NCBI GenBank assembly: GCA_016927905.1
Contig: JAFGLW010000001.1
Location: forward strand, 359,718 to 423,717
DNA from: a candidate division CSSED10-310 bacterium
GTDB taxonomy: Bacteria > CSSED10-310 > JAFGJC01
Reading direction: 5' to 3'
DNA length: 64,000 bases
Shown here: piece after piece, positions 60,041-64,000 of the stretch
How the letters are laid out: every line of letters starts with the position of its first letter
How positions within the stretch are numbered: position 1 is the first letter of the stretch
Notes under the pieces: generated by a model
The model's input: only the letters and a program-made list of their open reading frames with translations
Told to the model about the DNA's origin: nothing
Databases searched by the model: none
Made by a program: the position numbers and the translations under genes

Positions 60041-62010
<1,970 letters not shown>

Positions 62011-62012
62011 GA

Positions 62013-62168
62013 TCATTCCTCCTGTTCTTTAAGATTTTGAAGGATGGAGATGTACTCTTCTGCAAGACGCATGGCCAGATAATCCAGGAATTCCTTGACA
62101 GCCTGATCAGTATCGATTTCGTTTTGAATTTCTTCTTTGTTTTGAATCTTTTCAGCGAGCGCTTGCAT
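62013..62168 (-). CDS. 51-residue small protein in front of the recombinase
   Basis: ATG at 62168, stop overlapping the first recombinase ATG (ATGATCATG). The product starts MQALAEKIQNKEEIQNEID and ends ISILQNLKEQEE, strongly charged and helical (Lys/Glu-rich, two helices). Being translationally coupled to the recombinase, it may be a recombination directionality factor or partner. Too short to classify. GGAGG lies rather far upstream (about 13 bases), so the start is moderately sure. Confidence 0.6.
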   Translation of the reverse strand: MQALAEKIQNKEEIQNEIDTDQAVKEFLDYLAMRLAEEYISILQNLKEQEE

Positions 62169-62193
62169 CGTGCATCATCACCCTCCATCCTTG

Positions 62194-62222
62194 ATGATAC
62201 ACACTGTGTATTATATTGTCAA
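62194..62222 (-). promoter_or_regulatory. Promoter and operator of the small-gene/recombinase operon
   Basis: On the minus strand TTGACA (complement of 62217-62222), a 17-base spacer and TATCAT (complement of 62194-62199). The spacer contains the palindrome ATACACA-C-TGTGTAT (62197-62211 on plus), so a bound protein would block RNA polymerase. A near-identical palindrome lies in the promoter of the MerR-like gene upstream. Confidence 0.75.
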
Positions 62223-62223
62223 A

Positions 62224-62838
62224 TTAAAATTGAGAATTTTTAGTTAATTCGGTGAGATTGATTTCAAGTTGGCTTGTCACGGCATCGTCCCGGATGAGTT
62301 CACCGGTAACGATGATGTCATCCGGAATGCCGTACAAAACGGCTGGAGCCAGTGTTCGCCATCCGGAAGCTCTATTCTGAGATTTACTCATCAACTTTTT
62401 GCGAAAATATTCTTCCAGCTTTTCCAGGTCCAGACCCAGCAGGATTTTCTCATCGATTTCTTTTCCGGATTTACCCGGGATCAGCATTCGGAAGTAAGCT
62501 AGCTTTCCATTCCGGATCACGAGGAAAAACTGTAGATTCTGTTTCGTGAGCTGATCCAAGAGTGACTCGCCGAATTTTTGTTCCACGATCGAACTGAATT
62601 TGCTGAGCAGTCGTACAAGTACCGTGATATTGTGGGTTGAAATGCTGTACTTTTTCAACTCGAGTGTCAGGAGCAGTTCAAAAACATTTTGTGTCGAGAA
62701 CAGTCGGGAGGAACCTCGCCCTCTTGCATCGACCACCGGAACGATGACTTGTTTCTCGCACAGGTAGATGATTTCGTGCTTCGGGATTCCCAGTTTGAAT
62801 GCGGCTTCAGTGAGGGTGATAGTGTCTTCGGGATTCAT
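62224..62838 (-). CDS. MerR-like DNA-binding regulator of the element
   Basis: 204 residues from ATG 62838; an ATG three codons upstream lies inside the operator. The N-terminal 70 residues (ITLTEAAFKLGIPKHEIIYLCEKQ, then RLFSTQNVFELLLTLELKKY) follow the winged helix of MerR regulators with its second helix pair. The middle part (HNITVLVRLLSKFSS) is helical, and the C-terminal 80 residues are not recognised. Its own promoter and the next one downstream both carry ATACACAnTGTRTAT, so it probably represses itself and the recombinase. The stop is 2 bases before the -35 of the recombinase promoter. Confidence 0.8.
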   Translation of the reverse strand: MNPEDTITLTEAAFKLGIPKHEIIYLCEKQVIVPVVDARGRGSSRLFSTQNVFELLLTLELKKYSISTHNITVLVRLLSKFSSIVEQKFGESLLDQLTKQNLQFFLVIRNGKLAYFRMLIPGKSGKEIDEKILLGLDLEKLEEYFRKKLMSKSQNRASGWRTLAPAVLYGIPDDIIVTGELIRDDAVTSQLEINLTELTKNSQF

Positions 62839-62839
62839 A

Positions 62840-62873
62840 ATACACATTGTATATCACCGGGAGATTTTGTCAA
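62840..62873 (-). promoter_or_regulatory. Promoter and operator of the MerR-like gene; possibly leaderless
   Basis: On the minus strand TTGACA (complement of 62868-62873), 16 bases, TACAAT (complement of 62846-62851). The operator ATACACA-T-TGTATAT (62840-62854) covers the -10. Transcription should begin close to 62839, next to the ATG at 62838, and there is no ribosome binding site, so the message may be leaderless. Confidence 0.7.
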
Positions 62874-63227
62874 CGAATTCATTCATTCCCTTCTTGAATC
62901 GATGACATTGTCCGAAATTTTTGATTCCTTCACCGTCTCGGTCAACCTCGAAACAATTCTCATGAGAAGTTATCTGAAACTGATCAGCAAGGTATGGTCT
63001 GCCGCGGAGAAGAATTTTGATGAAATTGTCAGCAGTCACGCTAATTCCGATTAGATTTTGGCAACAACCAGTTTCTAGTGATTGGATTTTTTCGTGATCT
63101 CTCCTATTTTTCTTAGAGCAGGATGGTTTTACTGGAAAATTAGGCATGAACATTTCTCGATGTTGATCAAATCGGGAAGGAGATTGGACATGTGGGGTCG
63201 CATGAAATCAAAGGAATAATTTTCCTA
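62874..63227. other. Intergenic stretch between the regulator promoter and the leader-RNA promoter
   Basis: 354 bases without a convincing gene. A plus-strand frame ending at 63054 (from an ATG at 62902, about 50 residues) has no ribosome site; a minus-strand frame 62854-63153 overlaps the regulator promoter. GGAAGGAG at about 63180 precedes a 9-codon frame only. The stretch is likely regulatory or the remains of genes. Confidence 0.4.
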
Positions 63228-63256
63228 TTGACATTATTTAAAAAAATAATTATATT
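63228..63256 (+). promoter_or_regulatory. Strong sigma-70 promoter of the leader RNA and small genes
   Basis: A perfect TTGACA (63228-63233), 17 bases of A/T-rich spacer and TATATT (63251-63256). Initiation near 63262 coincides with the first base of the UUCG hairpin. Confidence 0.75.
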
Positions 63257-63261
63257 ATAGG

Positions 63262-63395
63262 TGAGTTCTTCGGAACTCAGAGTTTTCCTACCAATGAGCC
63301 CCTTGGGCAAAGTCGCTAAGGATTACATGTCGTGGTGAGATGCAGGGCACCCTGCATTTGAAGATTTGACTTTGCTTTCAAGGAGGTAATTCCAA
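63262..63395 (+). ncRNA. Structured 5' leader RNA that masks a ribosome binding site
   Basis: Three perfect helices can be read. First, TGAGTTC / GAACTCA with a TTCG tetraloop at the presumed 5' end (63262-63279). Second, a long-range helix of GCAAAGTC (63307-63314) with GACTTTGC (63368-63375), extended by CCTTG (63301-63305) with CAAGG (63379-63383). Third, inside it, ATGCAGG / CCTGCAT with loop GCAC (63340-63357). CAAGG is the start of the ribosome site AAGGAGG (63380-63386) of the gene at 63396, so the closed form should reduce translation. Ligand, protein or temperature control is open. It is not a family I recognise. Confidence 0.65.
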
Positions 63396-63773
63396 ATGAA
63401 CGATGCAGAATTCATCAAAAAATTTATCGAGCTTAGGGCTCAAGGCGAAACCTTCAACACCATCAAACAGAAACTCAATCTCGACGACAAGGAAATGGTC
63501 GAGCTGGCAAAAATGCACAGAAAAGAGATTGAAGAGATGGAAAGATTTTACATGGATGTCGATATCATCGATGCTTATGGTACAAAAAGGACCAGATTGA
63601 AACTTCTGGGATCTATTCTGGAAGATCTCGTATTGGAACTGGAAAAACGTGATTACAAAGATCTGACAACAGCGAAGCTCATTCAATTTATGCTGAAGTT
63701 CCTCTCTGAAATTATAGGAATGAATCTGGATGACTGGTCTGGTGATACCGTTCCAAAGAGCATCAAGAAATAA
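63396..63773 (+). CDS. 125-residue helix-turn-helix-like protein of the element
   Basis: Soluble, all-helical by look. Residues 5-38 (FIKKFIELRAQGETFNTIKQKLNLDDKEMVELA in parts) look like a resolvase or terminase-small-subunit type helix-turn-helix. A coiled charged segment (KMHRKEIEEMERFYMDVD) and a C-terminal helix pair (LLGSILEDLVLELEKRDYKDLTTAKLIQFMLKFLSEIIG in parts) follow, as in small phage DNA-binding proteins. The start follows AAGGAGGTAAT, which the leader RNA can mask. The 39-codon gene comes 23 bases after it with the same GGAGGTAAT site. Role unknown; DNA recognition is inferred. Confidence 0.75.
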   Translation: MNDAEFIKKFIELRAQGETFNTIKQKLNLDDKEMVELAKMHRKEIEEMERFYMDVDIIDAYGTKRTRLKLLGSILEDLVLELEKRDYKDLTTAKLIQFMLKFLSEIIGMNLDDWSGDTVPKSIKK

Positions 63774-63796
63774 GGTATTGAAATGGAGGTAATAAA

Positions 63797-63916
63797 ATGA
63801 TTGATCAAAGCATAATCGATAAAATCATAGAACTCAGGGTACAAGGACTCAGCTATGAGAAAATCTCTAAACGGGTAAAAATCAGCAAACCGACAATCAT
63901 GGATGTAATCAAGTGA
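63797..63916 (+). CDS. 39-residue helix-turn-helix-like mini-protein
   Basis: The whole product is one DNA-binding-like motif: IIDKIIELRVQGLSYEKI followed by SKRVKISKPTIMDVIK. It matches the N-terminus of the preceding protein at IxKxIELRxQG, so they are probably paralogous. GGAGGTAAT sits 6 bases before the ATG. Such a short protein may act as a dimer, compete with the larger protein, or be its truncated duplicate. Confidence 0.65.
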   Translation: MIDQSIIDKIIELRVQGLSYEKISKRVKISKPTIMDVIK

Positions 63917-63928
63917 AAAAGTCATGAT

Positions 63929-63961
63929 CTTCCCGGACAGTCAGCGTATTCTGCCGGGAAG
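63929..63961 (+). other. Stem-loop after the mini-protein gene
   Basis: CTTCCCGG-a-CAG pairs with CTG-CCGGGAAG around a 10-base loop; an A bulge interrupts the stem. No T run follows, so it is a weak terminator at best; a Rho-dependent end, an RNA-stability element or a binding site is possible. Confidence 0.6.
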
Positions 63962-63984
63962 CATTTAGGGCAGAAAAAACACCC

Positions 63985-64000
63985 CTGGGGGATCCCCCAG
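63985..64000. repeat. Perfect 16-base palindrome at the window edge
   Basis: CTGGGGGATCCCCCAG is a full palindrome (two arms of 8). It ends exactly at the window edge, so any larger structure is not visible. It could be a protein-binding site or part of a hairpin. Confidence 0.7.

Follow-up and report, generated by a model that had tools for sequence, protein, structure and literature searches.

What might a stable RNA fold do when it separates the near-consensus promoter of a small operon from its first gene, on what is likely a mobile element? This question is raised by the last 64,000 bases (the window) of a 423,717-base contig (C28), from a 3.1-Mb genome of 31 contigs; window base 64000 is the end of the contig. 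Of the mechanisms weighed below, the best single one is masking of the Shine-Dalgarno (SD) sequence of the first gene, ORF1, by its own leader, with the mask opened by a ribosome on a short upstream reading frame. We give this reading a probability of roughly one in three. A close rival is a leader that masks the SD permanently, and chance folding is a fair one.

The end of a likely mobile element

The genes and signals of the region are the following.

60041..60393, + strand: tmRNA gene (Rfam match), likely integration target
60232..62016, - strand: large serine recombinase with Resolvase, Recombinase and Zn_ribbon_recom domains, its 3' end lying across the tmRNA 3' end
62224..62847, - strand: divergent gene for a MerR-like protein, probably starting at 62838 (MerR_1 match at E 0.0021, short of the cut-off)
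63228..63256, + strand: promoter TTGACA-17-TATATT, 11 of 12 consensus positions
about 63263, + strand: predicted transcription start
63263..63395, + strand: predicted 5' leader RNA of 133 nt, from the putative start to the ORF1 ATG
63396..63773, + strand: ORF1, 125 aa, with an HTH-like N-terminal segment and a remainder predicted to be helical
63797..63916, + strand: ORF2, a helix-turn-helix (HTH) mini-protein of 39 aa resembling ORF1 residues 1-39

The recombinase and the MerR-like gene are thus read on the minus strand, followed by the leader, ORF1 and ORF2, all on the plus strand. Resolvase, recombinase and zinc-ribbon domains adjoining a tmRNA 3' end mark an integrative element, and the region is likely one end of an integrated mobile element. 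The lower G+C content of 60394-64000 (44%, against 52% for the contig) is in line with this reading. We infer integration itself from the one element end in view. The last codons of the recombinase frame (WRRRESNPGP...) cross the tmRNA 3' end (60232-60393). Relatives of the recombinase numbered 287 proteins; among the best 120 of these, the closest was P0004 (81% identity), encoded on a metagenome contig no longer than 13,897 bases, and the next full-length relatives showed 41-42%. The C-terminal residues of P0004 (WLQWWKRRESNPGP) and of the window recombinase (WLQWWRRRESNPGP) are alike, suggesting the same kind of target. Viral contigs held one relative at 28% and one at 27%, and genome contigs none. 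For the MerR-like gene, a single protein (P0003, 62%, on a 758-base contig) was found, and no relatives were detected in genome or viral contigs.

The first-pass annotation, which was made from the letters of the DNA, had described a near-perfect promoter before the leader, and the match at 63228-63256 (TTGACA at 63228-63233, a 17-nt spacer, TATATT at 63251-63256) agrees with that description. At a loose threshold (9 of 12), a 2-kb region contained no surplus of promoters (5 found, 4.2 expected). Sites matching at least 11 of 12 positions occurred three times in 60394-64000, where 100 shuffles gave 0.05 on average and never more than 1, and twice in the 60,040 bases upstream of the tmRNA gene. 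The other two element promoters precede the MerR-like gene and the recombinase. The former (TTGACA-16-TACAAT, minus strand, 62838-62873) ends at 62846, leaving about 0 nt of leader before the likely ATG at 62838, and a leaderless mRNA is therefore predicted for the MerR-like gene. The MCIM codons overlapping this promoter are kept in the distant relative P0003. The recombinase-side promoter lies about 20 nt from a short frame starting at 62168. Given a start at 63263, a long leader (about 133 nt) belongs only to the ORF1 transcript among the three.

ORF1 and ORF2 have codon-position G+C contents like those of the recombinase and the MerR-like gene (low at position 2). Both had been described as small HTH-like proteins. 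For ORF2 this is backed by matches to HTH_SB (E 1.4e-4) and HTH_23 (E 2e-4), neither of which reaches its curated cut-off. ORF1 itself showed no substantial match in Pfam or PHROG and none to an HTH family; its N-terminus is supported as HTH-like through similarity to ORF2, which aligns without gaps to ORF1 residues 1-39 (63396-63512) with a score of 60 that none of 5000 shuffles reached. The structure model of ORF1 was of low confidence (mean pLDDT 52.9), and among its 26 matches to the PDB at E <= 10 none reached 0.001. In a search of 5.8 billion proteins ORF1 found itself only (19 candidates); among 60 genomes it occurred in its own, and no relative was found in viral contigs. A regulator encoded with a mini-copy of its own putative DNA-binding end in one transcript would form a pair of regulator and possible competitor.

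Both genes have strong SD sequences (anti-SD duplex of the upstream 20 nt: ORF1 -12.8 kcal/mol, ORF2 -10.7 kcal/mol). The SD of ORF2 is open, with an opening cost of 1.6 kcal/mol, and therefore cannot be masked directly by the leader; ORF2 would follow ORF1 only through mRNA stability or polarity. The proposal of an RNA-regulated control unit of the inserted element is thus supported by calculation for SD masking at ORF1, in a likely mobile element, and only by half for control of the whole operon.

Downstream of ORF2, 63917-64000 contains a strong imperfect hairpin (CTTCCCGG...CCGGGAAG). The contig breaks off inside a 16-base palindrome (CTGGGGGATCCCCCAG, preceded by AAAAAACACCCC) found nowhere else in the genome. 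This palindrome scores as a terminator on the minus strand and may be half of a two-way terminator.

The predicted fold of the leader

The leader (63260-63400) is predicted to fold with a minimum free energy (MFE) of -46.2 kcal/mol, all folding energies being calculated with one energy parameter set. The fold consists of the following parts.

63263..63278, + strand: UUCG-capped hairpin of 6 bp (GAGTTC-TTCG-GAACTC) at the predicted 5' end, pair probability 0.9
63298..63314, + strand: 5' strand of the 17-bp SD-masking helix, pair probabilities 0.89-1.0 in 16 of 17 pairs
63338..63359, + strand: inner hairpin of 9 bp, arms 63338-63346/63351-63359, loop 63347-63350
63368..63387, + strand: 3' strand of the masking helix, with the SD AAGGAGG (63380-63386) inside it

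The masking helix encloses one short stem and the 9-bp hairpin. It includes the whole AAGGAGG except for a bulged A at 63384, and two further bases (63377-63378) are bulged; its weakest pair is 63306/63376 (probability 0.65). Six of the seven SD positions are paired, each with a probability of at least 0.97, and opening the SD costs 8.2 kcal/mol. By calculation, the SD is thus sequestered as in a translational attenuator. The fold was unchanged across seven alternative 5' ends from 63258 to 63266, and the UUCG hairpin gains a seventh base pair when the transcript starts at 63262 or earlier. Much of this had been drawn by eye in the first-pass annotation. The UUCG-capped hairpin was recovered where it had been placed, as was the 8+5 bp long-range helix over AAGGAGG (63307-63314/63368-63375 and 63301-63305/63379-63383), which the pairs 63298-63300/63385-63387 and 63306/63376 extend to 17 bp. 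The inner hairpin was also found, with 9 bp instead of the 7 bp assigned to it. Calculation (17-bp helix, six of seven SD positions paired) likewise supports the central proposal, masking of the first gene's SD by its structured leader.

The same bases could act as DNA. The inverted repeat at 63262-63279 (TGAGTTC-TTCG-GAACTCA) spans the predicted transcription start, and a terminator scan lists it as terminator-like; it could then be an operator for the MerR-like protein, ORF1 or ORF2, or a weak terminator against outside read-through, with the RNA fold being incidental. However, 62840-64000 holds no second inverted copy and a single partial direct match, inside ORF2, only four consecutive T follow the stem, and the helix over the SD would be unexplained. 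We regard this explanation as very unlikely.

How such a mask might be opened was addressed with several candidates. A switch had been suggested in which CCAA (63291-63294) pairs with TTGG (63303-63306) and frees the ribosome site. The calculation speaks against it, as this form has an equilibrium probability of 0.002, lies 3.7 kcal/mol above the favoured fold and does not free the SD core. When the pairing was forced, positions 63381 and 63386 opened and the SD core (63382-63384) stayed paired (unpaired probability 0.02-0.03), its predicted partner being a local UUCC. The CCAA/TTGG form was the minimum-energy form at two of 12 partial transcript lengths (ends 63306 and 63376), and it is therefore at most a folding intermediate. 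An RNA thermometer was rejected as well: the mean unpaired probability of the SD was 0.146 at 20 C, 0.148 at 45 C, 0.157 at 60 C and 0.256 at 80 C, so the SD stays closed over this range and no thermal switch is predicted.

A known riboswitch or other Rfam family was also rejected, since no covariance model matched the leader at its gathering score, in agreement with the first-pass annotation, which had recognised no riboswitch, T-box or L-leader. In the whole window, Rfam matches were the tmRNA and one tRNA only. At E <= 10, 63150-64000 gave three eukaryotic models (E 3.3-5.3, far below gathering), which are chance-level snoRNA models. These results bear on the idea that a protein or ligand binds the leader and opens or locks the fold, either as autoregulation by ORF1 or ORF2 or as a riboswitch. 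The closed multi-helix junction and the HTH-like products would suit such a site. However, there is no Rfam leader match up to E 3 apart from the chance-level snoRNA models, no relatives were found, and proteins of the HTH class usually bind DNA, which counts against autoregulation through RNA. Binding of this kind seems improbable.

Strength of the fold against chance

A stretch of 44% G+C with a purine-rich SD often folds in this manner, and the structure could have arisen with no selected effect. Moreover, the leader was picked by eye from a 64-kb window, and no conserved copy of it was found. The stability of the fold argues against this explanation: the MFE of 63260-63400 was equalled by 5 of 200 shuffles, and by 19 of 1000 when the SD and the tail were kept. 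The SD-covering duplex (-23.9 kcal/mol) was matched by 8 of 2000 shuffles (-15.5 +/- 2.6 kcal/mol), with the best among all SD-covering 20-nt arms being taken for each shuffle. With any arm at any place, 34 of 2000 shuffles had a duplex as strong, and a count of 3 in 2000 is too favourable because its arm was chosen from the fold itself. The position of the fold, with a near-consensus promoter directly before it and the first gene of that promoter directly after it, also argues against chance. Closure of the SD is less distinctive. By opening energy 57 of 1000 shuffles equalled it, and by mean unpaired probability 124 of 1000. A local hairpin of at least 9 bp appeared in 152 of 1000 shuffles. 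In the contig, 13 of 158 genes with strong SDs had the SD equally or more closed, and eight of these 13 also had an equally stable leader; the underlying set is a rough one (315 frames without overlaps, each 150 aa or longer, whose starts were picked by the strength of the SD). Overall, the helix is stronger than chance, but moderately so, and SD closure alone is a weak sign. The fold as described appears real as a prediction, standing modestly above chance, and we consider a purely accidental structure somewhat unlikely.

Relatives of the leader were searched for in several collections. At the DNA level, phages (14 records, no E-value better than 0.06) and plasmids (7 records, none better than 0.05) yielded nothing beyond short, weak similarities, and among eight genomes of the phylum only its own contained it. 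A model built from the leader as a single sequence (R1) matched, among 386 genomes, its own and one other (G146); the latter hit, with E 0.03 per genome, is what chance would give over so many genomes. Elsewhere in the contig (18 loci) R1 had no match. In viral contigs, a pattern for the 3' strand with the SD hit 16 stretches, 15 of them with near-identical sequence. Their predicted 5' arms were weak in all 16 (-8.4 to -13.6 kcal/mol, against -23.9 kcal/mol here), and R1 matched one of them (L040, 15.4 bits), within a frame of 1267 aa. A pattern for the 5' strand hit two stretches in viral contigs, neither matched by R1. Neither the leader nor ORF1 had a homologue in the collections searched that could supply covariation for the masking helix. 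At present, the leader is an orphan known from a single sequence, and its fold is moderately unusual.

The upstream frame and opening of the masking helix

Two short frames, the first of which is absent from the first-pass annotation, lie within the leader.

63294..63338, + strand: upstream frame of 14 codons, MSPLGKVAKDYMSW and stop, covering the whole 5' strand of the masking helix
63340..63369, + strand: second short frame of 9 codons, MQGTLHLKI and stop, a candidate frame only

As the first frame overlies the 5' strand of the helix, opening by a ribosome is suggested. The 17-bp helix would hold the SD of ORF1 shut and keep its translation low, and the most likely opener would be a ribosome on the 14-codon frame. 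Beyond the predicted start near 63263, we infer translation of this frame as well as repression and opening in the cell. With a ribosome footprint on codons 1-9, the calculated cost of opening the ORF1 SD falls from 8.2 to 5.4-5.7 kcal/mol, and on codons 10-15 it is 5.7-7.4 kcal/mol; under these footprints the SD remains partly paired locally. Leaders begun at 63307, 63315 or 63360 gave 4.3-5.5 kcal/mol. The median SD opening cost in the contig, 4.7 kcal/mol, is near the values for ORF1 without the 5' strand (4.3-5.7 kcal/mol). By this calculation the 5' strand contributes about 2.7 kcal/mol, which by simple arithmetic is close to a factor of 100 in equilibrium.

The frame itself is poorly equipped for initiation. 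Its anti-SD duplex is only -2.4 kcal/mol, almost no SD. The zone around its ATG (63279-63297) opens for 1.4 kcal/mol, and exposing the full 30S zone (63279-63310) costs 12.4 kcal/mol. A usable ribosome site of its own, as the leader frame of an attenuator has, was not found. ATG frames as long occurred in 1099 of 5000 shuffles, and frames spanning the arm in 760 of 5000. A leaderless start at the GTG codon at 63261, which shares its reading phase with the 14-codon frame, was considered and is unsupported; it needs transcription to begin exactly at 63261. The second frame begins one base past the first frame's stop codon and runs into the 3' strand of the helix, where it ends; in this position re-initiation could matter.

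An upstream frame at chance expectation is also what would be seen if the leader merely masked the SD and set a low level of ORF1, with no switch and with the upstream frame meaningless. Masking by calculation and the stability of the fold between 20 and 80 C (unpaired probability of the SD 0.15-0.26) are in accord with such a fixed damper. However, a weaker promoter or a weaker SD would presumably be a simpler route to a low level, and the 133-nt leader is long beside the other transcripts of the element. We hold this alternative as tentative, a little below masking with ribosome-driven opening.

A more specific form of ribosome-driven opening can be imagined, in which the leader senses translation stress. 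Ribosomes stalled on the 14-codon frame would open the SD of ORF1, a putative DNA-binding regulator without known relatives, and the uncontrolled mini-copy ORF2 would compete with it, so that the element decides when to act. We think this elaborate version improbable. If the leader works as predicted, the regulation of serine-recombinase elements at tmRNA genes, which has been little studied, would gain an SD-masking control, and a regulator of the element would be tied to the state of the host ribosomes.

Comparison with known leaders

SD-sequestering leaders in general include RNA thermometers, riboswitches and protein-bound leaders. As in these, the SD of ORF1 is predicted to pair with an upstream strand; here the leader is no thermometer and has no Rfam riboswitch match.

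Translational attenuators of resistance genes include those of ermC, cat and the Bacteroides tetQ of CTnDOT (PMC5418344). The present leader resembles them in having a leader frame and an SD-sequestering fold, and tetQ is likewise borne by a mobile element (PMC5418344). Unlike in these attenuators, no resistance gene is present here, no competing two-state hairpins were found, and the upstream frame has no good SD.

The nearest parallel is the toiL leader of the E. coli topAI-yjhQ operon, in which stalled ribosomes are reported to open a hairpin holding an upstream frame and the topAI ribosome site (PMC12121999). That model is experimentally supported by SHAPE, ribosome profiling and reporters; toiL requires its SD, and its peptide is conserved (PMC12121999). 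In contrast, the frame studied here has almost no SD and no relatives and is known from sequence alone. The toiL frame is 8 codons long with its start 139 nt upstream, whereas ours is 14 codons long with its start at 102 nt (PMC12121999). As in that toxin-antitoxin operon, a short upstream frame lies within a hairpin that is predicted to occlude the ribosome-binding site of the first gene (PMC12121999). The leader is a plausible further example of a known and common form of control, SD masking, with its function being predicted from the fold.
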